A stretch of DNA of 16,623 nt from a bacterium (GTDB lineage: Bacteria > JALSQH01). Below the pieces are notes generated by a model. It made no database searches and was not told where the DNA came from. It saw only the letters and a list, made by a program, of their open reading frames with translations. A program made the position numbers and the translations under genes. The DNA is taken from assembly GCA_026985515.1 (NCBI GenBank), contig JALSQH010000065.1, positions 1 to 16,623 on the forward strand, read 5' to 3'. Positions 1 to 16,623 of this stretch are shown in pieces (position 1 is the first letter of the stretch; each line of letters starts with the position of its first letter).

Positions 1-1006
1 CCGGAGAAATTGCTTCTATCATAGTTTGATCAGTATTCTTTAAAAGGTAAAACAATCTAAATCCTACATAATTATTCTGGTCTTTAGCAGGCAAATTGTT
101 ACTCATTCCCGTCGACATCATCAATAAATCTCCCCATAAATGAAGATCAATTAAGGAAGGTGTAACTCCTCTCACATCATCTTCCTTATCTAATAATGTG
201 ATTCTACTATTTTTATACTCAAAAATAAAAAAAGTTGACTCATTAAGCACGTATATCCGATATATATCCTGACCCTTTTCATCTTTCCCAAAATACTCCG
301 CATAAAATTTATCAGGAGTATAATCCACAATCTTTGTTTCCTCATTTGCAAAATTACAGTATACTCCATTTTTATCAAACCTTGTATAACATCCTACCAG
401 ATGACTATCCTTTATCTGCACCGGGAAAAACTTCTTTATCCATTGGGGGAGTTTTGCCACCCTCCAATCACAAATATTGTCAGGAGAAACATAAAAAAAG
501 TAGTTATTTTCACTTTGAAAAGCATACACAGATAATACTGGCGAATCAAAATCCCAAAAAGGAATAAATTTAATCTTCAAATTTCCAGCAAGACTTTTAC
601 CAAACAACTCTACTTCCTTCACCTTCCCCGAAGATGTCTTATAAACAAGTCTTAATGACAAAATCCCTATTACACCTTTACCAATCCTGAAAAAACCAAT
701 TGATTCAGACACCGGATAATCATATTCAAGGGAGGTGCCAAAACTACTTATTTTAGATAATGCATCTTCAACCCTTTCATCTCCCCAGAATGTCACTGGA
801 GTAAAATAAAACTTTGCTGACATTATATTTTTCATCTTTTCCATCGATTCAGGATAAATAACTATTCCATCATCTACAAATTCAATCAGAAAAGGATTAG
901 GAATCTCCTCAGATTCCTGATGAGTTATTCTCTCCTTTTGGGAACAGAAAGGAAATAAAAATAAAAACAAAAACACAACTATAAATACTATCTCTTTTTT
1001 TCTCAT
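1..1006 (-). CDS. putative lipoprotein, unknown function, 3' end outside window
   Basis: The frame is open from ATG at 1006 to the left edge (335 codons), so this is a partial gene. The N-terminus (MRKKEIVFIVVFLFLFLFPF then Cys21) is a charged start followed by a long hydrophobic core ending at cysteine, as in lipoproteins; the lipobox (F-P-F-C) is imperfect. The rest is rich in Phe, Tyr and beta-strand-like segments, and I recognise no family. The start is three bases after the TGA of the upstream large gene, and in the same frame as it, so the two are surely cotranscribed. The signal peptide argues for a separate protein rather than stop-codon readthrough. It is probably an envelope partner of the upstream Cys-rich protein, by position only. 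Confidence 0.8.
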   Translation of the reverse strand, partial: MRKKEIVFIVVFLFLFLFPFCSQKERITHQESEEIPNPFLIEFVDDGIVIYPESMEKMKNIMSAKFYFTPVTFWGDERVEDALSKISSFGTSLEYDYPVSESIGFFRIGKGVIGILSLRLVYKTSSGKVKEVELFGKSLAGNLKIKFIPFWDFDSPVLSVYAFQSENNYFFYVSPDNICDWRVAKLPQWIKKFFPVQIKDSHLVGCYTRFDKNGVYCNFANEETKIVDYTPDKFYAEYFGKDEKGQDIYRIYVLNESTFFIFEYKNSRITLLDKEDDVRGVTPSLIDLHLWGDLLMMSTGMSNNLPAKDQNNYVGFRLFYLLKNTDQTMIEAISP

Positions 1007-1009
1007 TGC

Positions 1010-2941
1010 TCATTGTCCCAGTTTTATCTTCTCAATTCTAACCCCCCTTAAACCTGAAAATAACACCGTTGAATCTACTCCTTTAATCGCCCCATTTAGT
1101 CCATCCCACAAATCATTTATGATTCCTCCTACCACTTTAATTGCAGCTTCGCATCCGCCTGAGTAATGGAGACCATTATAAAAAATATTACAATGTTCCC
1201 AATTAAGATGAGCATTATCAAAATAACGAGGATAAAGCCGCATCCCAATTCCAAAAACCTTTTGTCTATCGCTCGTATTACCCCACATAAAGACCGGATA
1301 TAAGTATCCAAAATGTGAACCATTTTGCTCCGGTCTCTCGTAAATCAAAATAGTTCCATCTATTACGCCTAAAATTTTAGGCGTCTTATTGCCAATCCTG
1401 GGACCAAAAACAATTCTACCTTTTCTAATTCCCTTATAACTTTTTATTCCAATAGTAAAATCATCATATACTTCAAGTCCAAATGGCAGCCTTATTCTTA
1501 TACCCTTCACATCCCATTTGTCAGGATAATTAGTTATATCTTCCGGAAAAATTAGCTTATCTGGATAACCAGGAGGTGGAACTAAATAAATAGGGAGATC
1601 ATTTTCTTTGATCTTTTTAAGAAAACCAAGCATTTTATCTACAATTCTTTCTTTAAAACTCTCAAACCCTGAGATAGAACACCCCATCACATCTACATGC
1701 ATGGGTTCTAACTTGAACTGGCCTGAATAACACCTCTTCTCAGATTTTGAATAAAGCAAGCCACCTACAGCAATATTATCTATGTCACAATCATATTTAC
1801 ATCCTGTTTCTTCATCTGTGGCTTTGCATGAATAATCATATACAACCCTGGCATATACTGCCCTATCCCTCTTTCCGTACATGCAATGATAATGCCTATA
1901 ACCACCAAAGTAATTGATCCAACACGAATCTTCTCCCGAGACAGGAAAACATTCTTTAACGCAATTTTCTACTTTATTATACCAGGTGCCTATACTGTTA
2001 ATTTTTACATTCTCAAATTGCTCTGGAACTTCTTCTTTCCAGAAATGCTCCCACTTATAAACTAGTAGATCCGATTTATATACTGTTTCCTCCACGATTC
2101 CGAAATTCTTAAATACCGCCTCAAACCAATTTGAGTAATTATCCTTATCAGGAATATCTGCCTGTTCATACCTATCACTCGTAAAATTATAATCCTTCAA
2201 TGTATCCACATCTTTTTCTATGTTTAAGAAGGGCCTAAATATTCCTATCCTATATAAAGGTATTGTCAAATAAGTATAAACCGGCATATCCTCTCCGCAA
2301 GCACCATTGGGGCGCCTAATCTTTATATATTTACTTCCTAAATTTATTGTATCGCTTACATAAGTATCATTTAAAACTTCATGACTTACATATAGTTTTG
2401 TTCCTTTTAAATTACCATCTTCAACCTCTAATGAGCTTAAAAGATTATAAACGATGTCCATTACCCTTCGTGTAAGCGCCCAATATTCTTTGTCCCAGAT
2501 CCTGGTAGATGATGTGGGAAATTTTTCACTAAGATATTTCACATAGGGAGCCAAGTTCTTAATACCAATTACCGATTGAATGGCGTCTGTTATCATACTT
2601 GAAGAGAAACTAAAATTATCTGTATGTACCACAGGTAATAAGTTAATCTGGTAAAACAAATCCTTTAAGCTATCAGAATGAGGAGCTATTATATCATACG
2701 AGTCTATCTTATAAGCTCCGAACAGAGAGAAATCTTCTTTTGAATCAACTATTCTTCTCTTTAAATTGTTATCAGTTCTAGATATTGGATACAAATAAAG
2801 ACCCTTCAAATCTTCAGGCATATTAAGTAACCCGTCCTTCAGAAAAAAAGTATTAAACAATCTTAAATATTCTGCTAAATTCTCAACAAACTCTTCACCT
2901 TTAGTTAATGCAGGTCTCACCTCATAATCCACTATTACCAT
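1010..2941 (-). CDS. large Cys-rich hypothetical protein (probably the C-terminal part of a split gene)
   Basis: This intact 643-codon frame matches no family I recognise. About a dozen cysteines lie in the middle and C-terminal parts, densest around residues 320-420 (for example NCVKEC, GCKYDC), as in disulfide-bonded exported proteins. Yet the annotated ATG has neither a signal peptide nor a clear ribosome-binding site. Its first residues (MVIVDYEV) align by eye with an internal part of the degraded gene at 5061-6334. The frame immediately upstream (2947-3456) aligns with the preceding part of that gene. I therefore infer that this ORF and 2947-3456 were one gene, separated by a -1 frame change near 2941-2950. 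Residues 41-115 share LP/MP...P, G-Y-x-(I/L)-D and H-T-(N/D)-x...FS-x-S patterns with the degraded copy. A genuine separate cistron remains possible. Confidence 0.75.
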   Translation of the reverse strand: MVIVDYEVRPALTKGEEFVENLAEYLRLFNTFFLKDGLLNMPEDLKGLYLYPISRTDNNLKRRIVDSKEDFSLFGAYKIDSYDIIAPHSDSLKDLFYQINLLPVVHTDNFSFSSSMITDAIQSVIGIKNLAPYVKYLSEKFPTSSTRIWDKEYWALTRRVMDIVYNLLSSLEVEDGNLKGTKLYVSHEVLNDTYVSDTINLGSKYIKIRRPNGACGEDMPVYTYLTIPLYRIGIFRPFLNIEKDVDTLKDYNFTSDRYEQADIPDKDNYSNWFEAVFKNFGIVEETVYKSDLLVYKWEHFWKEEVPEQFENVKINSIGTWYNKVENCVKECFPVSGEDSCWINYFGGYRHYHCMYGKRDRAVYARVVYDYSCKATDEETGCKYDCDIDNIAVGGLLYSKSEKRCYSGQFKLEPMHVDVMGCSISGFESFKERIVDKMLGFLKKIKENDLPIYLVPPPGYPDKLIFPEDITNYPDKWDVKGIRIRLPFGLEVYDDFTIGIKSYKGIRKGRIVFGPRIGNKTPKILGVIDGTILIYERPEQNGSHFGYLYPVFMWGNTSDRQKVFGIGMRLYPRYFDNAHLNWEHCNIFYNGLHYSGGCEAAIKVVGGIINDLWDGLNGAIKGVDSTVLFSGLRGVRIEKIKLGQ

Positions 2942-2946
2942 ATCAC

Positions 2947-3456
2947 TTACCGTATCACTTCCATTACTCCCCTAAATGTACCGGGATCCCACTTGCCATT
3001 TTTAAATCCATTATCATTGAACCACTCTATCCTCTCCTGATTGAGATCTCTGGTGCGCTTTATCACCACAAGATAATATCCATCCTCCGGAAAATCAAGT
3101 TTAAACCAGGCTCCATTCCTCCCATCAGGCAACTCCTCATCTGGATTCTTAAACTCAAGTTCCGCTTTAGTAAACTTAAATGTCCTCCACTCCATCTTAC
3201 TTTCTGGATCTGGAGTAAACAATTCCACCCTCGAATCAGGGAAAAGAGTCAACTTTTCCAGCATAGACTCCGATAAAATATCCTTTATTTTAACTGATTC
3301 CTCTTTCAATTTCCTTATCCCAACAACATAATAGTCACACACATCCACATCTTCCCTGTCACACTCAGAGGGTATATTACCCACTTCGAATGTTATCTGG
3401 CCATCATAGCTGTCTATCATGGGCAATAATTCAAAATTGTTCGCATTAACCAGCAC
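2947..3456 (-). CDS. hypothetical protein, probably the N-terminal part of the split large gene
   Basis: This 169-codon frame begins at GTG 3456, with a GAGGGA stretch just upstream that could serve as ribosome-binding site. The frame stays open upstream to 3522 with protein-like sequence, so the true 5' end is uncertain. It has no signal peptide. Residues about 115-165 (GAWFKLDFPEDGYYLVVIKR, then WF...NG...P..) read like a beta-rich extracellular domain. The WF-G-P-(V/I) pattern near the C-terminus matches residues about 58-80 of the 5450-5890 fragment. The stop lies five bases before the ATG of the next frame, which is in the -1 register. Either the two are coupled genes or this is the front of a gene now broken by a one-base loss; I favour the second. 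Confidence 0.55.
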   Translation of the reverse strand: MLVNANNFELLPMIDSYDGQITFEVGNIPSECDREDVDVCDYYVVGIRKLKEESVKIKDILSESMLEKLTLFPDSRVELFTPDPESKMEWRTFKFTKAELEFKNPDEELPDGRNGAWFKLDFPEDGYYLVVIKRTRDLNQERIEWFNDNGFKNGKWDPGTFRGVMEVIR

Positions 3457-3652: not shown

Positions 3653-4726
3653 TTATTCCCTACCCGTATGTCTTGCATCGTGTCTGAACATGGGCCAGGG
3701 AGAATCGGCAAGGCCTTTTGAAGAAGTGTAGATTGCGTAGAGGGAACCATCCTGGCCAGCAACGTAAATGATTCCGTCCCTATCTATCACAGGGGATGAA
3801 AAAGTAAAAAATTCAATTTTTTCATGTATACTATACGTCCACTCTAACTTTCCATCAGGACTGATGGCATAAACTACATAAGATACTACAGAACTAATGT
3901 AAATTGTACCATCCTTCCCCACAACAGGAGAAGAAAATATTTCACAATCACCATCCGAACAAATTCTATTTTTCCATTTAAGTGATCCATCCTGATTAAT
4001 AGCATAAAAATTACCTCCCATATCACCAATATATATAGTTCCATCCGATCCTATTACCGGTGAAGAGATAATTCCATCAATCTTCCCAAAAACAAATTTT
4101 TCAGATAAATCTTGGTTAATGGCATAAAGATAATCACCAGAACCTATATATATTGTTCCATCCTCATCTATTATAGGAGAGGAAACAATCTCTCCCAGTG
4201 TCTCATACATCCATTTCAGAGTCCCATCAGGATTAACGGCATAAAGATAATGATCTTTTGAACCCACATATATAGTCCCATCTTTCCCTATAGCAGGAGA
4301 TGAATAAATTTCGTCGCCTGTTTCTACCTTCCATTTCAATGTTCCATCAGGATTAATAGCATAAAGGAAGTGATCGCATGAACCAACATAAACTGTGCCA
4401 TCTTTCCCTATTGCTGGAGAAGACCAGATACTACCATCTGTTTTATACTTCCATTCTAAAGTACCAGTGGATTTGATCGCATAAAGATAATGATCACTTG
4501 ATCCAACATATATAATACCTTCTTCACTAACTGCAGGTGACGACCATATCCAATTGCTGGTAGAGAACTCCCACTCTATTCTTCCATCAGGATTAATTGC
4601 AATAACTGCATTGCCGCTGGAACCTATGATACTACCATCAGGTGTTAGCAATAAAGAAGAATCACCTCTTTCAAAATCAATTATCCATTTGGGCACACCA
4701 TCCTTACTGACATAGTTCTCCCGCAA
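3653..4726 (-). CDS. PQQ-type (WD40-like) beta-propeller protein, probable C-terminal part of a fn3-propeller lipoprotein
   Basis: Eight repeats of about 40 residues have the pattern (I)WSSPAIGKDGTVYVGS...LYAINPDGTLKW, which is the PQQ/quinoprotein-like propeller repeat. At this level the repeat indicates a scaffold or binding propeller, not necessarily a PQQ enzyme. The protein ends in SPWPMFRHDARHTGR, a tail or linker motif commonly seen beside such repeats. The first in-frame start is TTG at 4726, which lacks its own ribosome-binding site and signal peptide. A propeller of this sort is normally exported, and the preceding fn3 lipoprotein frame overlaps it by 46 bases in the -1 register. 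One extra base in the GGG near 4730 would join them as ...EKACGENYVSKDGVPKW. I therefore read it as the C-terminal half of one lipoprotein of about 480 residues. Confidence 0.85.
   Translation of the reverse strand: MRENYVSKDGVPKWIIDFERGDSSLLLTPDGSIIGSSGNAVIAINPDGRIEWEFSTSNWIWSSPAVSEEGIIYVGSSDHYLYAIKSTGTLEWKYKTDGSIWSSPAIGKDGTVYVGSCDHFLYAINPDGTLKWKVETGDEIYSSPAIGKDGTIYVGSKDHYLYAVNPDGTLKWMYETLGEIVSSPIIDEDGTIYIGSGDYLYAINQDLSEKFVFGKIDGIISSPVIGSDGTIYIGDMGGNFYAINQDGSLKWKNRICSDGDCEIFSSPVVGKDGTIYISSVVSYVVYAISPDGKLEWTYSIHEKIEFFTFSSPVIDRDGIIYVAGQDGSLYAIYTSSKGLADSPWPMFRHDARHTGRE
3690..4640 (-). repeat. in-gene tandem repeat, about 120-nt period (propeller blades)
   Basis: The blade-encoding DNA is periodic. 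Near-identical stretches reading acata.. then ccatctttcccta start at about 4266, 4386 and 4506, exactly 120 bases (40 codons) apart. More divergent copies continue toward 3690. The central blades are the most alike, consistent with recent internal duplication. Confidence 0.85.
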
Positions 4727-5064
4727 GCTTTTTCACTGGGAGAGGATTCATTTCCATCAATATCAACAGCAGAGACTCTAAAACAGTAAGTCGTAGAAGG
4801 CAATAAAAATGACACAACCAAGTAATTATCAAAAGTAAAAGCTATTTTTTCCCCCAAGCTATTGTATACATTATATCCTTTAACACGTACATTACCTTTA
4901 GAAGGAGACCATATGAGTTTTATCTGGGTAGCAGAAATTCCAGTGGCTACGAGTTCCTCAGGCGGAGAAGGAGGAATGGCTTTTTTCTTTCCTTCACAAG
5001 AATAAAGAAGGAAAACTAACAGAATAATAATGGGCACACAACTGGAATAAAATTTGTATCTCAA
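4681..5064 (-). CDS. fibronectin type III lipoprotein fragment, N-terminal part of the fn3-propeller lipoprotein
   Basis: I chose TTG at 5064 as the start. It is preceded by GGAAAGGGG at suitable spacing, and translation from it gives a clean lipoprotein signal: RYKFYSSCVP, a hydrophobic core, then LLYSC with Cys23. A longer frame to 5118 would spoil the signal peptide. Residues about 32-115 form a fibronectin type III domain (PPEELVATGISATQIKLIWS ... YCFRVSAVDIDGNESSPSE). The TTG start overlaps the TGA stop of the upstream degraded gene (TTGA), a translational-coupling arrangement. The frame closes ten codons after the fn3 domain (MSVRMVCPNG). The propeller continues in the -1 frame, so the gene is probably frameshifted rather than naturally this short. 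Confidence 0.7.
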   Translation of the reverse strand: MRYKFYSSCVPIIILLVFLLYSCEGKKKAIPPSPPEELVATGISATQIKLIWSPSKGNVRVKGYNVYNSLGEKIAFTFDNYLVVSFLLPSTTYCFRVSAVDIDGNESSPSEKACGRTMSVRMVCPNG

Positions 5065-5495
5065 AATATACCCCTTTCCAGTATAATTTTCATCATACAT
5101 ATAGGGTGATTGATACATATTTTTGCTGATTTTAATACTGCTTTTTCGCCTCTAAAATCATAATTAAGCTTAACATAATCCCACAGAACACTTCTTAACA
5201 AAATTTGCATTAAATGCGAAATCATTGAATATGATCCTTGAGGCGAATCACTAAATAAATCTTCCGTTCCCTTACATCCCCCAATCTTTAGTTGATCACG
5301 CAAATTCCATACGGGAAAAATTTTTTGACAACTGAGACTGAAAGCATAAGTATGATTGGTATGGTATTGAAATGAATATTGAAAAGAATAAGGAACATTC
5401 TCTCCTTCTGGATATACCATAGGAGCATCTAACTCATAAAGGCCACTAATTATTGAGACAATTTTATTAGTGTCCATGTTCTTAAGAATATCCAC
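5061..5495 (-). pseudogene. fragment 3 (C-terminal) of a degraded secreted-protein gene
   Basis: This 144-codon frame starts only at an internal GTG and overlaps the preceding fragment in the -1 register. Inserting one base in AAAATTTT near 5505 gives a continuous reading of ...PVRLIEKNFVDILKNMD.... Residues 18-29 (GLYELDAPMVYP) and 42-55 (FQYHTNHTYAFSLS) resemble residues 75-87 and 104-115 of the 1010-2941 protein. The frame ends at TGA 5061, which overlaps the TTG start of the fn3 lipoprotein. This suggests the 3' end is genuine and the copy is shorter than its relative. Confidence 0.55.
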
Positions 5496-6439: not shown

Positions 6440-6442
6440 AAT

Positions 6443-6471
6443 TTGCACTGTCTCTTTTTTTAAACTATAAT
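6443..6471 (+). promoter_or_regulatory. sigma70-type promoter of the metabolic operon
   Basis: TTGCAC (6443-6448), a 17-base spacer and a perfect TATAAT (6466-6471) lie just upstream of the first gene of the operon. Its AGGAG ribosome-binding site is at 6486-6490, six bases before ATG 6497. Confidence 0.8.
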
Positions 6472-6496: not shown

Positions 6497-7927
6497 ATGC
6501 AGTTACCAGAAAAAGGGCTCAGCAGAGAAGAGATCAGAAAAAAACTGGATGAAGTGGCTTCAAAAGATTATGACTGGTCATCCGGGAAGATTTTTGGGTA
6601 TGTATTTGATCCGGGCAAGGAAATTCTGGAAGTTGGGGAGGAGGCTCTCCTGAAATTCTACCATAAAAATGCACTGGATTTTACAGTTTATCCAAGCATT
6701 CTCCAGATGGAAAACTACATAATCTCTTTTGCGGCACAGCATCTCGGAGGGGATGAAAATGTCTCCGGTAACTTCACAAGTGGTGGAACTGAAAGCATTA
6801 TCCTCGCTGTTAAAACTGCAAGAAATTACATGAGGGAAAAGAGGCCCGAGATAACAGAACCTGAAATAATCATTCCAATTACAGCTCACGCAGCATTTCA
6901 CAAGGCGGGACACTACCTTGGTGTGAAGGTTAAGACCATCGGTGTGGATGAAAATTTAAGAGCCGACATAAAACAGTTGAAGGAGGCAATTACCGACAAC
7001 ACGATTCTGATAGCGGGGTCTGCCCCGAGTTACGCTTACGGAGTAATAGACCCCATTGAGGAGATGGCGGCAATTGCAAAGGAAAGAGGTATCCTCTTTC
7101 ACACCGACGCATGTATGGGGGGATTTCTGCTTCCCTTCATAAGAAAATTAGGGAAAAATGTTCCTCCCTTTGACTTTTCAGTTGATGGTGTAACTTCCAT
7201 ATCCATGGATCTCCACAAATACGCCTACACACCAAAGGGAGCATCTGTGATCCTCTACAGGAACAAGGAATTGAGAAAACATCAGATTTTTGCCTGTGCA
7301 AGCTGGACAGGATACACGATGATTAACAGCACGATACAGAGCACAAAAAGCACTGGACCCCTTGCAGCCGCATGGGCAACACTTCAATATGTGGGAGAGG
7401 AAAGGTATCTTGAATTTGCCAGAAAGAAATTAGAAGCCACAGAAAAAGTTGTAAAATTTGTAAAGGAACATCCCGACCTGAGACTCATTGCGGAACCTGA
7501 CATGACACTGGTGGCTTTTACCTCTGATACGGTGAATATTTTCCACATCATTGATGAGATGAATCTCAAAGGGTGGTATATCCAGCCTGTGCTTTCCTAT
7601 GCTGGAATCAAAGAAAGCATTCACCTATCAATTAACTACTCCAATGTCTTTCACATTGATGAATTTATTGAAGATATGAATACCGCAATAGAAGAGGCGA
7701 AAAAATTACCCAGCGGAACACTTCTCCAAAAAGCGTCTGAGATTTTCAGCAGTCAAGAAGGTTTCCAGCTGACACCAGAGGTAATCAGAAACCTGATGGA
7801 ATTGGCAGGAGTGAAGGATGGGAAAATTCCAGAAAGGTTTGCCCCAATAAACGAAGTTCTCAACATACTTCCTGCGGAACTCAGAGAGACTCTCCTTGTG
7901 GAATTTGCAAATTACATGTTCAGATGA
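6497..7927 (+). CDS. PLP-dependent group II decarboxylase family, sphingosine-1-phosphate lyase-like
   Basis: This 476-residue, full-length, soluble fold-type I PLP enzyme begins at an ATG with a strong AGGAG ribosome-binding site. Family marks are DWSSGKIFGYVF (residues 26-37, the lyase-type GK-x-x-G-x-V/Y motif) and GNFTSGGTESI (91-101, phosphate-binding loop). HAAFHKA follows at 131-137 (His stacking on PLP), then HTDACMGGF (202-210, Asp204 to the pyridine nitrogen). SMDLHKYAYTPKG (236-248) carries the Schiff-base Lys241. The overall pattern is nearest to bacterial/archaeal sphingosine-1-phosphate lyase-like proteins, which cleave phosphorylated amino alcohols to an aldehyde and phosphoethanolamine. 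Relatives decarboxylate glutamate, aspartate or tyrosine. It lacks the membrane anchor of the eukaryotic lyase. The substrate is open; the neighbouring carboxylate/amino acid transporter makes an amino acid substrate reasonable. Confidence 0.88.
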   Translation: MQLPEKGLSREEIRKKLDEVASKDYDWSSGKIFGYVFDPGKEILEVGEEALLKFYHKNALDFTVYPSILQMENYIISFAAQHLGGDENVSGNFTSGGTESIILAVKTARNYMREKRPEITEPEIIIPITAHAAFHKAGHYLGVKVKTIGVDENLRADIKQLKEAITDNTILIAGSAPSYAYGVIDPIEEMAAIAKERGILFHTDACMGGFLLPFIRKLGKNVPPFDFSVDGVTSISMDLHKYAYTPKGASVILYRNKELRKHQIFACASWTGYTMINSTIQSTKSTGPLAAAWATLQYVGEERYLEFARKKLEATEKVVKFVKEHPDLRLIAEPDMTLVAFTSDTVNIFHIIDEMNLKGWYIQPVLSYAGIKESIHLSINYSNVFHIDEFIEDMNTAIEEAKKLPSGTLLQKASEIFSSQEGFQLTPEVIRNLMELAGVKDGKIPERFAPINEVLNILPAELRETLLVEFANYMFR

Positions 7928-7937
7928 GGAGGAAAAG

Positions 7938-9302
7938 ATGGCTCCAACTTTTCCCTTTAATTTCATGCTTATTTTCAGTTTCCTGTCCGCTCTTCTCATA
8001 ACAGGGTTCATTTTACGGGCAAAAATAGGTTTCATACAGAAATACCTCTTCCCAAGCTCCCTCATCGGAGGAATAATTGGTTTCATTATAGTGAATGCTT
8101 TAAAAATGGATACAAAAATATTTGAAACCTTTGCCTACCATTTTTTCAATCTCTCATTTATTTCCATAGGGCTAACTCCAACACCCCCCGAGGAAAAACT
8201 GGAAAAACACGAAAGCAGAGATTCCTTCCTCGGAGCTTTATGGATGGCACTCTTTGAAGGGGCAATCTTCCCCTTACAGGCAGCTGTGGGTGGAATATTT
8301 GTTCTCATCTTTGTCATACTGGGTATGAAACTTCACCCCGCCTTTGGTTTTCTTCTTCCCCTTGGATTTGAAGAGGGTCCCGGGCAGGCTCTATCCTTTG
8401 GAAAGGTCTGGGAAAAACTGGGATTTGAGAATGCTGCCATGGTGGGAATAACCTACGCCATTCTGGGATTTGTTGTTGCTATTGTAGTTGGTATACCTCT
8501 CGTAAACTGGGGATTGAGGAAAAAATTAAAATCAACAGATGAACACAAACTTCCTGAAGAATTCATCAAAGGTTTCTATCCTCCAGACAGAACTGAGAAC
8601 ATCACCTTGAGGCAGACCACGCATCCTGCAAATATTGAATCTCTGGCCTTTCAGCTTGGGATGGTGGGACTTGCCTATGGAATTACCTATTATATAACAT
8701 ACTGGATTGCTGCGTTGATTGGTGGCAACATGGGGAAATTGGCATGGGGTTTTTTCTTCCTGTTTGGTATGGTTATCGCAATGGGCATAAGGAGCATTCT
8801 CACTCTCTTTAAAGTTGACTATCTCCTGAGCGTACCCCTTCAAAGGAGAATAACCGGATTTTCTGTGGATTACCTTATTGTTGCAACAGGTGCAGCCATT
8901 CAGCTTGAAATAATCGGTCACTACATTGTACCAATCCTGATTATCTCTACATTTGGAGCAATTGTAACACTGTGGCTTGCGGTATATCTTGGAAGGAGAC
9001 TCCACTCTTACAACATCGAAAGAATGGCAGCAATCTTTGGGACAGTGACAGGTACAGTTTCCACCGGAATTCTTCTTTTGAGAATCGTTGACCCTGAATT
9101 CAAAACTCCTGTTATTAAAGAAATTGGATTTATGAATGTCTTTGCGGTACCAATAATTTTTGTCTTAACAATGATGGTGAATGTGCTTCCATTTAAATAC
9201 CATCTCGGAACACTGACGGTAACACTTATCTTTCTTGGAGTTACCGTAACAGTAATTGCACTCATGAAAATAATAGGCCTTATAAAAGAACCAAAATTTT
9301 AA
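7938..9302 (+). CDS. sodium/glutamate symporter-like (GltS/ESS family) membrane transporter
   Basis: I place the start at ATG 7938 because GAGGAGG ends five bases before it. The frame is open upstream to 7896, but that part overlaps the end of the previous gene. The 454-residue protein has roughly a dozen hydrophobic segments. Two Gly-rich re-entrant-like stretches resemble the two halves of the GltS family: LGFEEGPGQALSFG near residue 145, and GTVTGTVSTGILLLRIVDP near residue 365. ESS proteins import glutamate or related anionic amino acids with sodium. The cytoplasmic loop around residues 195-230 (KLKSTDEHKLPEEF...) is long and charged. Its placement directly behind the PLP enzyme suggests that it supplies that enzyme's substrate. 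Glutamate itself is only one possibility. Confidence 0.8.
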   Translation: MAPTFPFNFMLIFSFLSALLITGFILRAKIGFIQKYLFPSSLIGGIIGFIIVNALKMDTKIFETFAYHFFNLSFISIGLTPTPPEEKLEKHESRDSFLGALWMALFEGAIFPLQAAVGGIFVLIFVILGMKLHPAFGFLLPLGFEEGPGQALSFGKVWEKLGFENAAMVGITYAILGFVVAIVVGIPLVNWGLRKKLKSTDEHKLPEEFIKGFYPPDRTENITLRQTTHPANIESLAFQLGMVGLAYGITYYITYWIAALIGGNMGKLAWGFFFLFGMVIAMGIRSILTLFKVDYLLSVPLQRRITGFSVDYLIVATGAAIQLEIIGHYIVPILIISTFGAIVTLWLAVYLGRRLHSYNIERMAAIFGTVTGTVSTGILLLRIVDPEFKTPVIKEIGFMNVFAVPIIFVLTMMVNVLPFKYHLGTLTVTLIFLGVTVTVIALMKIIGLIKEPKF

Positions 9303-9305
9303 ATC

Positions 9306-10022
9306 ATGATCTGGCTTTTCCCCATTGTTTTTCTATCATTCACCATACAGGCAATGACTGGATTTGGGAGCATAGTCATAGCAGTAACACTTGCTGCGCT
9401 TTTCTATCCCATTAAATCAATTCTTCCCATTCTTGTCATACTGGACTTTATTTTAAACACTTACATCCTTCTCAGGTACTTCAGGTTTATTAATTTCAAC
9501 ATACTCTTCAAAAAAATACTCCCCGCAATGAGCATAGGTTTCATAATTGGACAGGTCATTTTTAACTATGTTGGAGCAGAATCAAAAAGACTTCTCGGCA
9601 TAATTGTGGTAACCCTTGCAGCTTTTGAGCTGTACAACTTTTACAGGAAAAACAGCAAACCCCTATCAAACCTTGCGGCCATTGGATTCTTTTTCTTTGC
9701 AGGAATTGTACATGGAATTTACGCTTCCAGTGGGCCACTTGTGGTGTATGTGGTGGGTAAATTGGGAATTGACAGAACGACATTCAGAAGCACCCTTGAT
9801 GGATTGTGGGTCCTCATGGATATTTTCCTGATCATCTCTTACTTTGTCACCGGAATACTGACTGTCACAACGGTAAAATACACCCTTTATCTGCTCCCCG
9901 TGGTGATAGCAGGACTGATCATTGGAGAGGTTCTCCACCACAGAATAAATGAGAGAAACTTCAGGGGGGTGGTGTATCACCTCCTCTTCCTAACCGGTAT
10001 ATCAATCCTGGTGCTTGGGTGA
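9306..10022 (+). CDS. TSUP (TauE/SafE, DUF81) family permease
   Basis: The protein has 238 residues and about eight hydrophobic segments in two related halves. The first half carries QAMTGFGS (15-22) and the second GIVHGIYASSGPLVVYVV (about 134-151); these paired Gly-rich motifs are typical of TSUP permeases. Characterised members move sulfite, sulfoacetate, other sulfonates or other organic anions, usually outward. The start lies three bases after the transporter stop with no good ribosome-binding site, so translation is probably coupled. In this operon an exporter role for an acidic product is plausible, and a sulfur compound is possible but not shown. Confidence 0.85.
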   Translation: MIWLFPIVFLSFTIQAMTGFGSIVIAVTLAALFYPIKSILPILVILDFILNTYILLRYFRFINFNILFKKILPAMSIGFIIGQVIFNYVGAESKRLLGIIVVTLAAFELYNFYRKNSKPLSNLAAIGFFFFAGIVHGIYASSGPLVVYVVGKLGIDRTTFRSTLDGLWVLMDIFLIISYFVTGILTVTTVKYTLYLLPVVIAGLIIGEVLHHRINERNFRGVVYHLLFLTGISILVLG

Positions 10023-10027
10023 ACAGA

Positions 10028-10069
10028 TTGACTTTTACAATTTTATGTTTTAATTTTGTGTGATACAAT
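10028..10069 (+). promoter_or_regulatory. possible internal promoter before the dehydrogenase genes
   Basis: The only sizeable gap inside the operon (10023-10076) holds TTGACT (10028-10033). It also holds an extended -10-like TGATACAAT, with the hexamer TACAAT at 10064-10069, ending seven bases before ATG 10077. The two elements are too far apart to be one promoter. The -10 element would start RNA at or next to the ATG. Confidence 0.4.
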
Positions 10070-10076
10070 TATTTTG

Positions 10077-11447
10077 ATGGAAGCTATTGATCGTTTAAAG
10101 GAAATAGTTGGAAAAGATTTCGTATTCACCTCCCCTGAAGAAACACTTCTCTACGGCAGGGACGGGGGTTCCACTCCTCCACGGAGGGTCGATGCTGTTG
10201 TTATTCCCGGAAGTGTGGAAGAAGTACAGGAAATAGTCAAATTTGCCAGCAAAAACAATATTCCCGTAACCCCCGCTGGAGCGGGTCTGACTCTCAACGG
10301 TTTAACCATTCCCCTTCACGGCGGTATTGTGGTCGACATGAGAAGAATGAACAGAATACTGGAGGTAAACAGATTATCAAGGTATGTGGTTTTGGAAGCA
10401 GGTGTCACTCAGGGATTTTTGCTTTCATATTTGAAAGAAAACCACCCTGATCTGATGCACTCCATTCCAGAAGCGCCACCCACCGCCACTGTTGTGGGAA
10501 ATCTTCTTATAAAAGGTCATGGTACCCAGGCGTTTTACGGTGAAAATTCTGACATGATAAATGGCCTTGAAGTGGTACTTCCCACAGGTGAACTTCTCTA
10601 CACCGGCTCCCTATCAGTATCAAAGTACTGGTTCACAAAGGGACCTCTTCCAGATCTAACAGGATTATTCATCTCATGGTTCGGTACCACTGGCATTGTG
10701 ACAAAAGCCTCCCTGAGATTATTTCCACGACCAGCCTACAGGGATTCAGTTATGTTCATGATGGACCAGCCTGAATACATCCCTGAATTAATCTACGAAA
10801 TAACTGCAACAAGACTTTTTGACAACATTGGCATGCTGGGGCAGGATCTTCCTGAGTATCTGAAAGGTCATCAGTTTGTGGGAGCAATGATCTCAGGAAA
10901 TTATGAGGAAGAGATAAAACTCAAAAAGGAGATCATTTCCCGGGTGGCAGAAAAATTTGGCGGGAAAGTGCTCCTTATACCTGAAATACCAGATTCAATT
11001 AAAAAGAGATTTATGGAGGAACCACCCTTCGCAGCTGTTGCGGCAGATTTCAGGAAGGGAGGCGGTTTTCAGTATTGTGGAGCAATGATTCCCCTTGAGA
11101 AAGTTCCAGAGGCGTGGAGAAAAGGAGAAGAAATTGCACACAAATACGGCTTTTACTTTTCATGTGCCAACCAGGTTCTTGCCTTCGGTCATGAAGTGAT
11201 GTTTGGCTTTAACTACTCCTTTAACCGTGCCGATCCCGAGGAAGTAGAAAGAGTCGGGGAAGCAATGAAGGAAACCAATGACCTTGTTCTCTCCCTTGAA
11301 GGAATACCATGGAAGGCAGACTTTTACGCCCAGCAAAGAATACTGGCAAAGATGTTTCCAGAAACATACAGATTGATTCAGAAGATAAGAAAAACCCTTG
11401 ACCCTGCTGGCATCATGAATCCGGGAAACTGGGAAAAAGAGGAGTAG
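10077..11447 (+). CDS. FAD-binding oxidoreductase, GlcD/D-lactate dehydrogenase type
   Basis: I chose ATG 10077 (456 residues). A TTG seven codons upstream adds only CDTIIL-type sequence that overlaps the promoter-like element. The N-terminal half is a VAO-type FAD-binding domain: VVIPGSVEEVQEIV (about 41-54), the FAD loop PAGAGLTLNG (about 66-75) and GGIVVDMRRMNRI (82-94). NGLEVVLPTGELL and GLFISWFGTTGIVTKASLRL follow. The C-terminal FAD-oxidase cap ends with the usual KTLDPAGIMNPGNW. Such enzymes oxidise 2-hydroxyacids (glycolate, D-lactate, 2-hydroxyglutarate), and some relatives act on aromatic alcohols. The Fe-S gene follows with no gap, as glcF follows glcD, so electrons probably go from FAD to that protein and on to quinone. 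No ribosome-binding site is visible. Confidence 0.88.
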   Translation: MEAIDRLKEIVGKDFVFTSPEETLLYGRDGGSTPPRRVDAVVIPGSVEEVQEIVKFASKNNIPVTPAGAGLTLNGLTIPLHGGIVVDMRRMNRILEVNRLSRYVVLEAGVTQGFLLSYLKENHPDLMHSIPEAPPTATVVGNLLIKGHGTQAFYGENSDMINGLEVVLPTGELLYTGSLSVSKYWFTKGPLPDLTGLFISWFGTTGIVTKASLRLFPRPAYRDSVMFMMDQPEYIPELIYEITATRLFDNIGMLGQDLPEYLKGHQFVGAMISGNYEEEIKLKKEIISRVAEKFGGKVLLIPEIPDSIKKRFMEEPPFAAVAADFRKGGGFQYCGAMIPLEKVPEAWRKGEEIAHKYGFYFSCANQVLAFGHEVMFGFNYSFNRADPEEVERVGEAMKETNDLVLSLEGIPWKADFYAQQRILAKMFPETYRLIQKIRKTLDPAGIMNPGNWEKEE

Positions 11448-12599
11448 ATGGGACTGGAGGAATACAGGGAAATAATCCACAGGTGCTTCAGATGTGGATA
11501 CTGTAAATTGACTTCGGATTACAACTGGAGGGGGTTCAACTGTCCAGAATATAACAGATTTAAAGTGGAAAGCTACTCCCCAGGTGGAATGCTCTGGCTA
11601 TCCTACGCCGCATTTGTAACGGGAGAGTTAAAACCTGATCAACATCTGAGTGAGATAATATACTCATGCAGCATGTGTGGAAACTGTTCGGCTCAATGCA
11701 GGTTCAAATTTGGAACAATGGTAACCGAGATGTTGAGGAGGACCCGGGAGGAAATTGTGGAAAATCATCCCGAACTTATTCCATCAATTGTGAAAAGGTT
11801 TTTTCAAAATGTTTTCAAATACGGGAATCCCTACGGATCAGTAGAAGAGAATGAAAATCTTAAAAGCGAAATTCCACTCTTCAATGAACAGGAGTACCTT
11901 CTCTTCATTTCGCCACTTTCCTTCTTTGATCCCCTTGTCACTGAATCTGCTCTTTCCCTGATCAGACTCTTCAAAAAATTGAATATCTCCTTTGGTACAC
12001 CGGGATATGAAGAAATCTGTGACGGAAATGAAATACTTATGCTTGGAGAAAAATACCTGTTCAAAGAAATAAAGAAAAGAAACATAGAATTTATGCACTC
12101 AAAAGGTGTGAAAAAAATAGTTACATACTCACCCCATACCTACAACGCAATGAAAAACTACTACAAACTGGAGGGCATAGAGGTTCTCCATTACACCCAG
12201 TTGCTCGCAGAGAAAGTGAAAAAGATCAGAATAAAAGAGAGATTTGATAAAAAGATCACATACCATGATCCATGCTTTCTTGGAAGGTACAACGGTATTT
12301 ATGAAGAACCCAGAAAAATATTAAGATATGTGGCAGAGGAGAATTTTGTGGAGATGCCCCGCAACAGGGAAAATTCATTCTGCTGCGGAGGAGGCGGTGG
12401 AAACTTTTACACAGACTTCGTCGGCGGGGGAAAGGATTCTCCACCCAGAGTGAGGATAAGAGAGGCACTATCAACAGGCGCTGAAGTTGTTGCTGTTGCC
12501 TGTCCAATCTGCAAAATGATGCTCACCAGCGGAGTTAAGGATGAAGCAGCAGACCTGAATGTTCTTGACATATCAGAAATTTTGCTACCGCTTCTCTGA
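11448..12599 (+). CDS. iron-sulfur protein, GlcF/GlpC/HdrD-like, with one intact and one degenerate CCG domain
   Basis: The start ATG directly abuts the stop of the FAD gene (TAGATG), with GAGGAG inside that gene's end as ribosome-binding site. Residues 13-32 (CFRCGYCK...NCP) and 74-84 (CSMCGNCSAQC) carry two [4Fe-4S] motifs. The second CCG domain is complete: HDPCFLGRYNG (273-283), FCCGGGGG (311-318) and ACPICK (351-356), a candidate noncubane cluster site as in heterodisulfide reductase. The first CCG domain keeps the family framework but reads EICDGN where EICCG is usual (190-194), SPHT where CPHC is usual (228-231), and has no Cys in LLFISPLSFF (151-160). It therefore probably binds no cluster. 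Likely role: electron acceptor of the preceding dehydrogenase. Confidence 0.87.
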   Translation: MGLEEYREIIHRCFRCGYCKLTSDYNWRGFNCPEYNRFKVESYSPGGMLWLSYAAFVTGELKPDQHLSEIIYSCSMCGNCSAQCRFKFGTMVTEMLRRTREEIVENHPELIPSIVKRFFQNVFKYGNPYGSVEENENLKSEIPLFNEQEYLLFISPLSFFDPLVTESALSLIRLFKKLNISFGTPGYEEICDGNEILMLGEKYLFKEIKKRNIEFMHSKGVKKIVTYSPHTYNAMKNYYKLEGIEVLHYTQLLAEKVKKIRIKERFDKKITYHDPCFLGRYNGIYEEPRKILRYVAEENFVEMPRNRENSFCCGGGGGNFYTDFVGGGKDSPPRVRIREALSTGAEVVAVACPICKMMLTSGVKDEAADLNVLDISEILLPLL

Positions 12600-13238
12600 G
12601 AATTTTTTTATCAAATCCTGAAAAATTTCAAAGGCAAGTTCTTTAACTCTGTTTAAGGTATCGATGGGCCTATCTTCCAGTTCCTGGAGAACTCCATAGT
12701 TGTAGAGGCTCACAATTCCATGCAGATTACTCCATAATTCAAGAAGGATCAATCTTGCCTTACCAGGCCCAACTTCGGGGAACGCCTCTGTAAGAATATC
12801 CAAAATAAAGTTAAAAACTTCGATCCCCGTTTTCTTACTTTCGTAAGCAAGCCTCTCCATTTCCGTACCTATAAAATCTGAATACCTGGGAGCAGAGGTC
12901 ATTAGCATTATCTCATAATAGTTTTTATTTTTTATGGCGAAATTAATATACGCCTCCCCTATTCTCATCAGTTTTTGAAGGGGGTCATTCACATCTCGTA
13001 CCATGTACCTAAGGCTATTATTTAATTTTTGAAAGGCATTTCTGAGAAGAGTCAGATAAAGCTCATCTTTACTGGAAAAATAATTGTAAAGATTTGCCGC
13101 CGTCATCCCAATTCTTCTGGCTATATTTCTCATACTGAGATTTTCATAACCTTCCCGAATTATGATATCCAGAGCCGCATTAAGGATCTTTTCCTTAATC
13201 TGTTCAACCTCTTCTTTGGGTCTTGGAGGCTTGGCCAT
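12585..13238 (-). CDS. TetR/AcrR family transcriptional regulator with WHG-type C-terminal domain
   Basis: This 217-residue regulator has a TetR N-terminal DNA-binding domain, with the helix-turn-helix at residues 34-54 (LSMRNIARRIGMTAANLYNY) and the following FSSKDELY. The C-terminal ligand domain carries W169-x3-H173-G174 (LWSNLHGIVSL), the mark of the WHG subgroup. AGAGGGAAG lies just before the ATG. It is 17 bases downstream of the DUF2378-like gene and shares its promoter. Its 3' end overlaps the end of the plus-strand Fe-S gene by 15 bases, tail to tail. It may control its own operon through the palindrome at 13863-13888. Control of the metabolic operon is possible but unsupported by a shared site. 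Confidence 0.92.
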   Translation of the reverse strand: MAKPPRPKEEVEQIKEKILNAALDIIIREGYENLSMRNIARRIGMTAANLYNYFSSKDELYLTLLRNAFQKLNNSLRYMVRDVNDPLQKLMRIGEAYINFAIKNKNYYEIMLMTSAPRYSDFIGTEMERLAYESKKTGIEVFNFILDILTEAFPEVGPGKARLILLELWSNLHGIVSLYNYGVLQELEDRPIDTLNRVKELAFEIFQDLIKKFSEKR

Positions 13239-13255: not shown

Positions 13256-13810
13256 TTATTTTACAACAAACTCATATTCAATTATACCGTCATCCATCAA
13301 GGATTTTATCCGTTTAACTTCTACCTTTTTACCGCTTATTAACTCCATCGCTCTTTCAACAAAACCCATGACAGAATACTCAAGATACTTATGCCTAAAA
13401 GGCACATTTATTACTACCGCTCTACAAATATTATTTTCGCATTTCGCTTCTTTTACCTTTCCCTCTGTAAAATAAAGATTCCATAACAGATGTAGTTTCT
13501 CTTCAAAAAACTTTTCCACACTTCCTTCTTTTCTTATTGATTGATAAGGACCCTCTATAAGCGCCCAATTAGCCCCTTCCCTTCCAATTTCCCAATAAGC
13601 ATTTTCATCGCCACTATGAAAAACTTCTACAAATTTATCAATAAAAGGCAAAAAATGCTCAGCAGGGATCAGAGAACTTGGCAGTATTTTCTTCTCAAAA
13701 TAGGGATCCTCTTGTGCATATTCTCTAATAAAAGTTTTCCATCTTTCTTCTCCATACCTCTTTACAACTTCATCTCTCCTTGCCAGAAAAGCCATTCCTT
13801 TAACTTTCAT
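13256..13810 (-). CDS. DUF2378/V4R-like protein, possible small-molecule sensor
   Basis: ATG 13810 is preceded by GGAGGAGG at four bases. An in-frame ATG ten codons earlier (13840) lies inside the promoter -10 box, so I reject it. The 184-residue product looks like the TIGR02265/DUF2378 family known from Myxococcus paralogues. It opens with KVKGMAFLARRDEVVKRYGE, has a middle LPSSLIPAEHFLPFIDKFVE helix segment and a GREGANWAL segment, and ends in a strand like EYEFVVK, as in V4R/heme-NO-binding-related folds. Members have no firmly established biochemical role that I can name. Being first in an operon with a TetR regulator, it could sense or bind a ligand, but this is inference. The family call is by pattern, not by search. 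Confidence 0.65.
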   Translation of the reverse strand: MKVKGMAFLARRDEVVKRYGEERWKTFIREYAQEDPYFEKKILPSSLIPAEHFLPFIDKFVEVFHSGDENAYWEIGREGANWALIEGPYQSIRKEGSVEKFFEEKLHLLWNLYFTEGKVKEAKCENNICRAVVINVPFRHKYLEYSVMGFVERAMELISGKKVEVKRIKSLMDDGIIEYEFVVK

Positions 13811-13835
13811 ACATCCTCCTCCAGAATTTTTATTA

Positions 13836-13865
13836 ATCATATCACAGGACCTTCACATACTTCAA
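13836..13865 (-). promoter_or_regulatory. sigma70-type promoter of the DUF2378-tetR operon
   Basis: On the minus strand TTGAAG (13865-13860) is followed after 18 bases by TATGAT (13841-13836). A TGA directly before the hexamer makes an extended -10. The ATG at 13810 lies about 25 bases downstream. Confidence 0.7.
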
Positions 13866-13933: not shown

Positions 13934-15304
13934 CTACCACTCAATACGACAATCAAATTTAACACTTCCTATTTTTTTCCAAATAAAGCCAGATTCATCT
14001 GCCTTTCCACGAAAAATAGAATAAGTGGGCTTTGATGACGATTTACACCCTCCATTTATTATCTCACCTAAGTCTTCGGGAAGCGTTGTAACATTATCTT
14101 TACCCAGAGAAAAAATATAGTTATTATACTGAGTCATTCCTCCAAAACTGTTTATAAGTGAAAACCATCCCATAGGGAATTTCAATGTTATTAACTTAAG
14201 TGGCTCAGATTTTTCAAAATTCTCAAAGTACCATGCAGAAGCAAAATAATCAGGATTATTATCTGAGTCATATGGTAAATATACATCGTAACGACTTCTA
14301 TAAAACTCTCTATTATCCATCCTTGAAAAAGTAAACAAAATCCCATTATCAAATTTGAAAAGTCCTGAAAGGGTCAGAATTTTTTCCTCCTTTAATTCCC
14401 CTGTATTTGAAGTAAAAGAGAAACTATAAAAAATTTTCTCTTGATTTTCCATATTCACTAATTGAAAATTAACAGAATCAGAACTTGAAGATGTTTCACC
14501 TGCAAAGAACGGGAAAGCGAAAAAAGCTTTTTTAAACTTTCCCTTAATACCACCTATCTTTACAAAACTACAACTGTAGTTCTTTTCATTTGTTTCTTCA
14601 ATAGAAAACTTGAAAATATCAACTCCATCCGTAACAAAGGCAAGGTAATATGGAACATTACTAACAGGGTCCATATATACTTCTGCTTTTTCTATTGCTT
14701 CAGGCAATTCACAATCAAATTTTACATCTCTTGAAACTGGCTCAAAATTCCAACAGTATTTACTTCCACCACAATGCGTTACCCAGTTCCATTCACCTTC
14801 GTTGGAATAGAAAAAGAATATATCCCCTCCATATCTGAATACATAATTTGACATAACAAAAAGTCCATTAGATAAGCTCCTTCTGGAAATTATCTTTTTA
14901 TCAATTGAGTAAACAGAATACTCTACAGGCTCATTAATACTGCATCCCTTCCACCAGGTTACAATATACTCATCCGACGGAAAAGCAAGGGGGTAAATTT
15001 TATTAAAAAAATAATACTTATTTAATTCACACTTACCATCTATTTTTAAATCTTTAAGCTTTTGGAATCCAGAACTTTCCATCTTGAAAATATGCACTTT
15101 GCTATAGCATTCATCGTGATTAAAAAGGCCGCCATTAACCGCGAAATATTCAACTTTAACTAAATAAAGAGAATGTTCCTTTTTTAAAAAGAAGATCGTT
15201 GGTGAAGGTGTGCTTTCCTGTTCATAAGAAGGACAATAATTACAGGAGGAAAAAATAATTGAAACAAAAGAAATGAAAAAAAATACTAAAATCCTATTGG
15301 TCAT
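13934..15304 (-). CDS. putative lipoprotein, unknown function
   Basis: This 456-residue protein has a lipoprotein signal: MTNRILVFFFISFVSIIFSS then Cys21, with F-S-S-C as lipobox. The mature part has many short aromatic beta-strand-like segments (for example YYFFNKIYPL, IFFFYSNEGEWNW, IFYSFSF), suggesting an extracytoplasmic beta-propeller or similar. Cysteines recur (CSIN, CGGSKYCW, NYSCSF, FDCRIEW at the C-terminus), so disulfides are likely. No family recognised. It starts 12 bases after the stop of the sorting-tail protein, with AAGG as a weak ribosome-binding site, so the two form one transcription unit. The pairing resembles the large protein plus lipoprotein pair at the left edge, although I see no convincing sequence similarity between the two lipoproteins. 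Confidence 0.85.
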   Translation of the reverse strand: MTNRILVFFFISFVSIIFSSCNYCPSYEQESTPSPTIFFLKKEHSLYLVKVEYFAVNGGLFNHDECYSKVHIFKMESSGFQKLKDLKIDGKCELNKYYFFNKIYPLAFPSDEYIVTWWKGCSINEPVEYSVYSIDKKIISRRSLSNGLFVMSNYVFRYGGDIFFFYSNEGEWNWVTHCGGSKYCWNFEPVSRDVKFDCELPEAIEKAEVYMDPVSNVPYYLAFVTDGVDIFKFSIEETNEKNYSCSFVKIGGIKGKFKKAFFAFPFFAGETSSSSDSVNFQLVNMENQEKIFYSFSFTSNTGELKEEKILTLSGLFKFDNGILFTFSRMDNREFYRSRYDVYLPYDSDNNPDYFASAWYFENFEKSEPLKLITLKFPMGWFSLINSFGGMTQYNNYIFSLGKDNVTTLPEDLGEIINGGCKSSSKPTYSIFRGKADESGFIWKKIGSVKFDCRIEW

Positions 15305-15316
15305 TTTCTAACCTTT

Positions 15317-16623
15317 TTATCTTGAACGAAATAGTTTTCTTATTGGTATCCCAACAAAAAGCATTATTATTAACAGGACGTTATCAAGAGTGCCACTCTG
15401 AGAACAACCACCTCCTCCACCACTACCACCACCAGGAGGAGACGGTTTAGGGCAAATATGCCCTTTTGGATGCACTTCTACCTCATCCCAAACTGCACCT
15501 GTCGCCCACCAGTCTATTCTATGGTCCCCGAAGATTTCCTCACTTGTTGAAATTTTCGAATCTGAAAAAGCACTTTTAGGTGGAACAAAAACAAGATGCA
15601 CATAATGTCTTGTGTAAGAATAAACAGTTTCACCCCACAATGTCTTTTTTACTCTTACTGTTCTCAAACCGTAAGCAATTGCTGTATGACCATCTTGCCA
15701 GAATTGTGAACCTGATGCATAACTGTGAAGAACTGGATAATTATTGGTTATATCATTATAAAGATAATAATGAGGAACAACTCCTCCTAAATCAACATCT
15801 GTTCTTTTATCTGTACCTATTATTCTGTAACCAAAACCTGTTGCACTTCTGCCAAAACCCCTTCCATCAATTATTCCCTCAAAAGAAACTTTTGCGTTGG
15901 AAAATATTGGAATAGCAACTCCTGGCAAATCACTCACACTATCAGCATACTGTATCGTCACTACTTTACTACCAATCTGTCCAATATTTTCTTTTATAAT
16001 TTTTTCCACTATCTTCCTCATCACCATCTGACTGAACTTAACCTTCATCCTACCTCTATTGTGCAAATTGTGTGCCACGAAAAGCCCTCCGTATATCTCA
16101 ACCTCTGCATTGCAACCTGTCATCATCTGACCTGTATAAATACAGGTATTAAATCTCCCATATCCGTCAACTCTCAACATACTCCTGACAAGCAACCCTG
16201 GGCACTCAATACTTTGAAGAATAAGAGTGCTCTCGCTATCAATAATGAACGCTCCATTCACACTCAGATCCCCAAGTAAATCCACCCAAGCACCATTCAT
16301 CTTTACCCCACTTTCAAAAACGGCACTTCCCCTTACATAACCCTGTCCCTCTATAATCCACTCATCTCCATCCCATCTGAATGTTACCCCTCCAGTAGTG
16401 AATTCACCATAACCAACAATCTCTCCATCCTGAGTCACCTCTCCCGAATCAGAAAATATATATGTCGTATCAGAAATCCTTCTGCCATAATTCCTCCCAA
16501 AAAGATTATCGGGACCTTTGATACATTTATGCTTCTCAATCACATCCTCAACATCCAGCTCCCCTTCCCTGTGAATTCTCCGACAGAACAGTTCTGCATT
16601 ACTTCTGATAACACCGCAATTAT
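15317..16623 (-). CDS. beta-rich exported protein with C-terminal Gly-Cys-hydrophobic-Arg sorting tail (5' end outside window)
   Basis: The frame is open from the right edge to TAA 15317 (434 residues visible). A GTG at 16543 could start it, but protein-like sequence (RSNAELFCRRIHREGELDVED) continues upstream in frame, so the true start lies beyond the window. Residues after 16500 form short Gly-rich strands (VRGSAVFESGVKMNGAWVDL, VNGAFIIDSESTLILQS), suggesting a beta-helix or carbohydrate-type surface fold. The C-terminus is a Pro/Gly linker, GGGGGC, a hydrophobic stretch (VLLIIMLFVGIPI) and a basic end (RKLFRSR). That is the three-part plan of envelope-anchoring signals such as MYXO-CTERM and Synerg-CTERM. 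Function unknown; surface attachment is the likely fate. Confidence 0.82.
   Translation of the reverse strand, partial: NCGVIRSNAELFCRRIHREGELDVEDVIEKHKCIKGPDNLFGRNYGRRISDTTYIFSDSGEVTQDGEIVGYGEFTTGGVTFRWDGDEWIIEGQGYVRGSAVFESGVKMNGAWVDLLGDLSVNGAFIIDSESTLILQSIECPGLLVRSMLRVDGYGRFNTCIYTGQMMTGCNAEVEIYGGLFVAHNLHNRGRMKVKFSQMVMRKIVEKIIKENIGQIGSKVVTIQYADSVSDLPGVAIPIFSNAKVSFEGIIDGRGFGRSATGFGYRIIGTDKRTDVDLGGVVPHYYLYNDITNNYPVLHSYASGSQFWQDGHTAIAYGLRTVRVKKTLWGETVYSYTRHYVHLVFVPPKSAFSDSKISTSEEIFGDHRIDWWATGAVWDEVEVHPKGHICPKPSPPGGGSGGGGGCSQSGTLDNVLLIIMLFVGIPIRKLFRSR
15320..15433 (-). other. C-terminal sorting/anchor signal within the beta-rich protein
   Basis: These 38 codons encode the Gly linker ending in Cys, then SQSGTLDN, a hydrophobic segment of about 13 residues, and RKLFRSR. 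Tails of this order are processed and anchored by dedicated intramembrane or transpeptidase-like sortases in other phyla. The exact subfamily is not assigned. Confidence 0.6.

Follow-up and report, generated by a model that had tools for sequence, protein, structure and literature searches.

Two gene modules in the window

The five genes at positions 6497-12599 of the window (the whole 16,623-nucleotide stretch of DNA that was analysed) are two modules, a PLP-ESS-TSUP cassette and a GlcD-GlcF pair. The first module, which encodes a PLP enzyme, an ESS-type transporter and a TSUP transporter, is a conserved cassette of common origin that has spread horizontally among bacteria. Its probable role is the uptake and processing of a small sulfonate that resembles an amino acid, for example cysteate.

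All five open reading frames were intact and on the forward strand. The run begins with the gene for a fold type I, S1P-lyase-like PLP enzyme of 476 aa (6497-7927; PLP lysine K241), a member of the ESS-linked clade described below. It is followed by genes for a divergent ESS/GltS-type transporter of 454 aa (7938-9302), a TSUP/TauE family transporter of 238 aa (9306-10022), a GlcD-like FAD-linked dehydrogenase subunit (10077-11447; FAD_binding_4/FAD-oxidase_C) and a GlcF-like Fe-S/CCG subunit (11448-12599; CCG/Fer4_8). A gene for a TetR-family regulator (12585-13238, reverse strand) is convergent with the GlcF gene and overlaps its end by 15 nt. The original prediction described the five genes as intact and closely spaced, and re-reading of the frames and the intergenic gaps (10, 3, 54 and 0 nt) showed this to be correct, with the GlcD start taken as the ATG at 10077 (the open reading frame list begins at the upstream TTG at 10056). 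Its family assignments also held by Pfam matches for the S1P-lyase-like, TSUP and GlcD/Fe-S proteins, and the weak ESS assignment held through PF03616.

Shine-Dalgarno-like sequences were found ahead of the PLP, transporter and GlcF genes, and none was evident ahead of GlcD in its A+T-rich 54-nt gap. The strong promoter proposed for the run was the best sigma-70-like match in the region (TTTGCA-18-TATAAT at 6442-6471, forward strand, 10 of 12 positions). However, promoter-like sites were as common in shuffled sequence (16.2 ± 4.2) as in the region itself (17 observed), so this match gives no evidence of a promoter beyond chance.

Further open reading frames of the reverse strand were seen elsewhere in the window. 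An fn3-domain lipoprotein-like frame (4681-5118) overlaps a PQQ/ACSF4-type beta-propeller frame (3653-4726) in a different reading frame, and the two may be parts of a single secreted protein interrupted by a frameshift, or else separate genes that overlap. Large secreted-looking frames at 1-3456 and 13934-16621 (335, 643, 169, 456 and 434 aa) had no Pfam match, and a protein of 194 aa encoded downstream of the TetR gene (13256-13840) matched no family in Pfam or NCBIfam. The genome that carries the window had a single relative of its own family in the set of genomes searched, and all others were related to it at no closer than domain level; it thus represents a deep, poorly sampled lineage.

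Conservation and spread of the PLP-ESS-TSUP cassette

We read the gene neighbourhoods of 76 relatives of the PLP enzyme and of 3 more from one family. The PLP gene and the ESS-type transporter gene were adjacent in all 20 readable loci, which came from several phyla and included the window, and the transporter gene lay directly downstream of the PLP gene wherever a contig of the closest clade reached far enough. A TSUP gene adjoined this pair in 14 of the 20 loci. Three of these had a different TSUP gene in another position, with a divergent TSUP gene upstream of the pair at L183 and L184 and another, convergent one at L070, so the TSUP linkage is not merely an inherited position.

The ESS-linked PLP genes formed one clade (100/98) in the maximum-likelihood tree, with one change. 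Sequences from Caldifarciminota, Spirochaetota, Myxococcota, Thermodesulfobacteriota and the window's lineage were intermixed in this clade, taking the phylum labels of metagenome bins as given, and horizontal movement of the cassette is the best explanation of this pattern.

The GlcD-GlcF pair adjoined the cassette in none of the 19 other loci. In the sister genome (PLP enzyme identity 86%), an rfbA-like gene followed TauE, and the GlcD orthologue (78% identity) was found on another contig, which begins inside GlcD and continues with GlcF and the same convergent TetR gene. More distant GlcD-GlcF pairs were located downstream of a third CCG protein, in unrelated settings. These neighbourhoods, together with the sister genome, rule out the five genes as one conserved operon, and GlcD-GlcF makes up its own 2-hydroxyacid-type dehydrogenase module, which happens to lie after the cassette here. 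Of the single unit originally predicted, the PLP, ESS and TSUP genes therefore stand as a recurrent set and GlcD-GlcF does not; the possibility that the genes are neighbours only here was true for GlcD-GlcF and false for the other three.

Other neighbours were seen within and beyond the ESS-linked loci. At four loci from Desulfotignum relatives (L011, L013, L015 and L016) a gene for an EamA-type exporter lay directly upstream of the PLP gene, and at L010 the ESS-type gene (10481-11766) was read in two frames, which indicates a frameshift or a sequencing error. In many Actinomycetota and in Nannocystis (L024, L042, L028 and relatives), which carry other branches of the PLP family, the PLP homologue was preceded by an MFS_2 (GPH-type) carrier gene, and the carrier gene in turn often by a TetR gene; this gives the enzyme family a second transporter partner, of another kind. 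Still other branches had acyl-CoA ligase or enoyl-CoA hydratase-like neighbours, named by sequence inspection only.

Active site of the PLP enzyme

The PLP enzyme belongs to the Pyridoxal_deC family, has the fold type I architecture with its PLP lysine, and its closest solved relatives were all S1P lyases. Its predicted structure (pLDDT 91) aligned with the S1P lyase of Symbiobacterium thermophilum (StSPL) with a Z score of 54.5 over 432 residues at 37% identity, and the next structural neighbours were MfnA (Z about 45) and GadB (Z about 42). No close paralogue of the enzyme was found in its own genome.

The PLP lysine, Y249 and K317 of StSPL were kept in the enzyme, with K317 corresponding to K247. 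Only one of the three residues that we presume to bind the substrate phosphate in StSPL (Y105, H129 and K317) was retained, as Y105 was replaced by F37 and H129 by D61. F37, together with G34 and F62, sets the ESS-linked clade apart from the rest of the subfamily, which places part of the remodelling in the side-chain anion pocket. N58 and D61 aligned with N83 and D86 of GadB. No arginine was found at the position of GadB R422, which we take to be the alpha-carboxylate-binding arginine of group II decarboxylases, within the aligned segment 370-386 of the PLP enzyme (alignment of about 20% identity). The enzyme also scored under the cut-offs of the decarboxylase equivalogs (246.2 vs 299.4 bits for TIGR03812 and 95.6 vs 380.4 bits for TIGR01788). 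Judged by these residues, the pocket combines S1P-lyase and decarboxylase traits, and this mixture does not allow sequence alone to choose between decarboxylation and C-C cleavage.

The transporters

Filtered Pfam and NCBIfam scans and a phmmer search of PDB sequences gave no match for the 454-aa transporter. A whole-frame search matched PF03616 (Glt_symporter) with 32.9 bits against a cut-off of 26, which places the protein in the ESS family, and this unfiltered match ruled out an orphan family. An hhalign comparison with E. coli GltS was colinear over 304 columns (E = 7.5e-5, 22% identity). No second ESS-type gene was found in its own genome.

AspT, CitS and GltS-type carriers share one broad structural class. 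The predicted structure of the transporter was nearest to AspT (Z 15.6) and then CitS (Z about 12) by VIA-align, and a Foldseek search with the same model returned nothing at E < 0.001; with a mean pLDDT of 67 the model is weak, and its fold match does not separate the three types. The third gene product was assigned to the TSUP/TauE family (PF01925, 73 bits against a cut-off of 32.6).

Sulfonate genes around the cassette

At four Desulfobacterales loci with sulfate-reducing hosts (L012, L013, L016 and L070) the cassette was found in the company of sulfonate genes, among them that for sulfoacetaldehyde acetyltransferase (Xsc) or its usual neighbours. An Xsc gene (751 bits, curated cut-off 676) ended directly upstream of the PLP gene at L070, and genes for a Tpa-like aminotransferase and Xsc (902 bits) followed the PLP-ESS pair directly, in convergent orientation, at L016. 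An acetate kinase gene came after TauE at L012, and at L012, L013 and L070 the cassette was flanked by the SDR and TPP genes found alongside Xsc elsewhere. The L016 aminotransferase matched no Tpa model over its cut-off in NCBIfam; it was called Tpa-like because its homologues adjoin Xsc in most Xsc loci of a family of 86 genomes. A recurrent module of SDR, TPP enzyme, SBF carrier, SDR and Xsc genes, in places with acetate kinase, was also seen in Desulfobacterales (L070 at 5738-17502, L139, L142 and L140), with a divergent Xsc and mostly without Tpa.

Xsc was over its cut-off in 9 of 17 cassette genomes and in 0 of 14 controls. Within the 86-genome family, 9 of the 11 PLP-positive genomes had Xsc against 19 of the 75 PLP-negative ones (Fisher p = 5e-4), a test that ignores kinship, as the 11 positives amount to about four lineages, mostly Desulfotignum and its relatives. 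Several Xsc-positive hosts had no close Tpa. This co-occurrence and the Xsc, Tpa and acetate kinase neighbours agree with the earlier guess of an anionic amino compound and a sulfur-containing product.

The dissimilatory sulfite reductase DsrA was over its cut-off in 11 of 20 cassette genomes. Neither DsrA nor Xsc exceeded its cut-off in the window genome, its sister, the L004 host and the WOR-3 and spirochaete hosts, all of which keep TauE. The window's own genome is 97.6% complete and its best Xsc match reached 344 bits against the cut-off of 676, so no downstream route was seen there. TauE was present in the cassette of all 7 genomes that had neither Xsc over its cut-off nor a DsrA match (G000, G001, G060-G063 and G071), compared with 7 of the 13 others.

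Proposed function and alternatives

Gene context argues moderately strongly that the cassette handles an aminosulfonate. We tentatively favour a horizontally moved catabolic cassette that brings in L-cysteate, converts it to taurine by decarboxylation and sends out either the product or sulfite; this is quite possibly correct, at a little under an even chance. Uptake of the substrate, a small aminosulfonate anion that is most likely L-cysteate, would fall to the ESS-type transporter, its decarboxylation to the PLP enzyme, and export of the taurine, or of sulfite formed from it, to the TSUP transporter. Where the host reduces sulfate, the product would enter a Tpa-Xsc-acetate kinase route, with the sulfite being respired, while in hosts without Xsc and DsrA, including that of the window, it would leave the cell. 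Cysteate decarboxylation is our first choice because it fits both the ESS-type importer and the Tpa-Xsc context. The remodelled S1P lyase anion pocket, with D61 in place of GadB D86, is consistent with it, while the closeness of the enzyme to S1P lyases in sequence, structure and tree and the lack of the GadB R422 arginine speak against a simple decarboxylation.

The same two observations favour the most interesting alternative, a taurine-releasing lyase. Here the enzyme would cleave a C-C bond of a small 2-amino-3-hydroxy-1-sulfonate (cysteinolate- or capnine-like) to taurine, the sulfonate analogue of phosphoethanolamine, and an aldehyde, and the taurine would pass to Tpa-Xsc or leave through the TSUP transporter. 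The retained K317 equivalent fits such a reaction, the Xsc/Tpa context suits a taurine product, and cysteinolic acid is widespread among marine microalgae as a compatible solute (PMC8703288). However, two of the three presumed phosphate-site residues are changed, one of them to an aspartate, a change that does not argue for a sulfonate, an ESS-type carrier is a better match for an amino acid anion than for a zwitterion, and no marine link was established for the window organism; we consider this alternative unlikely. We are equally doubtful of a decarboxylase and exchanger for aspartate or glutamate, serving energy conservation or acid resistance in a coincidental sulfonate context. The N58 and D61 positions, the MfnA-type tyrosine/aspartate decarboxylases as next structural neighbours and the aspartate:alanine antiporter AspT as best structural match of the transporter are all in line with it, but the AspT match came from the weak model described above, and the linked TSUP, Xsc, Tpa and acetate kinase genes are left unexplained.

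Cleavage of the C-S bond of cysteate or cysteine sulfinate, with TauE exporting the sulfite, would make the cassette a fold-type I counterpart of CuyA-CuyZ. The presence of TauE in every cassette genome without Xsc and DsrA points in this direction, but that trend is small and Xsc and Tpa beside the cassette would be redundant. To our knowledge beta-elimination is also foreign to the S1P lyase and group II decarboxylase branch, and we regard this reading as improbable. That the enzyme truly is a lyase of S1P or another sphingoid phosphate, its neighbouring transporters being unrelated, is very improbable indeed: the structural closeness to StSPL favours it, but Y105 and H129 are replaced across the ESS-linked clade, the transporter that always accompanies the enzyme is of the small-anion type, and the loci read showed no sphingolipid genes.

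Among the organic sulfur compounds of sediments, cysteate, taurine and similar sulfonates hold an important place, and we know of few genes assigned to anaerobic cysteate use in sulfate reducers. An S1P-lyase-derived PLP enzyme with its own importer and exporter may form taurine anaerobically from an aminosulfonate (cysteate, cysteinolate or a capnoid), a generalization that we advance with reserve and hold to be possible but somewhat doubtful. If true, this would be a way into anaerobic sulfonate metabolism that has not been described before and has spread horizontally, and the S1P lyase branch would gain a new reaction. The short cassette, which joins uptake, PLP chemistry and export and occurs both in uncultured phyla and in Desulfotignum-type sulfate reducers, provides a marker and a direct target for assays. 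It also reveals an S1P lyase branch with an anion pocket reshaped to fit a different ligand. A search of the open-access literature returned no described PLP-ESS-TauE set and no cysteate decarboxylase in sulfate reducers, which does not prove their absence.

Comparison with known systems

The PLP enzyme resembles StSPL in its fold, its PLP lysine and the equivalents of Y249 and K317. It differs from StSPL in the exchanges at H129 and Y105, in a 4-residue insertion near residue 370 and in its constant pairing with a transporter. It shares the same PLP fold with MfnA (L-tyrosine/L-aspartate decarboxylase) and GadB (glutamate decarboxylase) and matches N83 and D86 of the latter. In contrast to these decarboxylases it falls below the TIGR03812 cut-off, has no arginine at the R422 position and carries a K317-type lysine. 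The cassette transporter is like GltS, the ESS glutamate:sodium symporter, in its PF03616 score and colinear alignment, but it is very divergent and its closest solved folds are AspT and then CitS.

CuyZ is a sulfite exporter paired with CuyA, and CuyA has another PLP fold. A Tpa-Ald-Xsc route to sulfite respiration has been described in Taurinivorans muris (PMC10507020). The cassette touches this taurine dissimilation in those sulfate reducers where Xsc, Tpa-like and acetate kinase genes adjoin it, but it has in addition a PLP step upstream and an importer of its own, and many of its hosts have no Xsc. It is also similar to CuyA-CuyZ, where CuyA is a cysteate sulfo-lyase (PMC10507020), in joining a PLP enzyme to a sulfite exporter for an aminosulfonate, and it differs from that pair by including an ESS-type importer.
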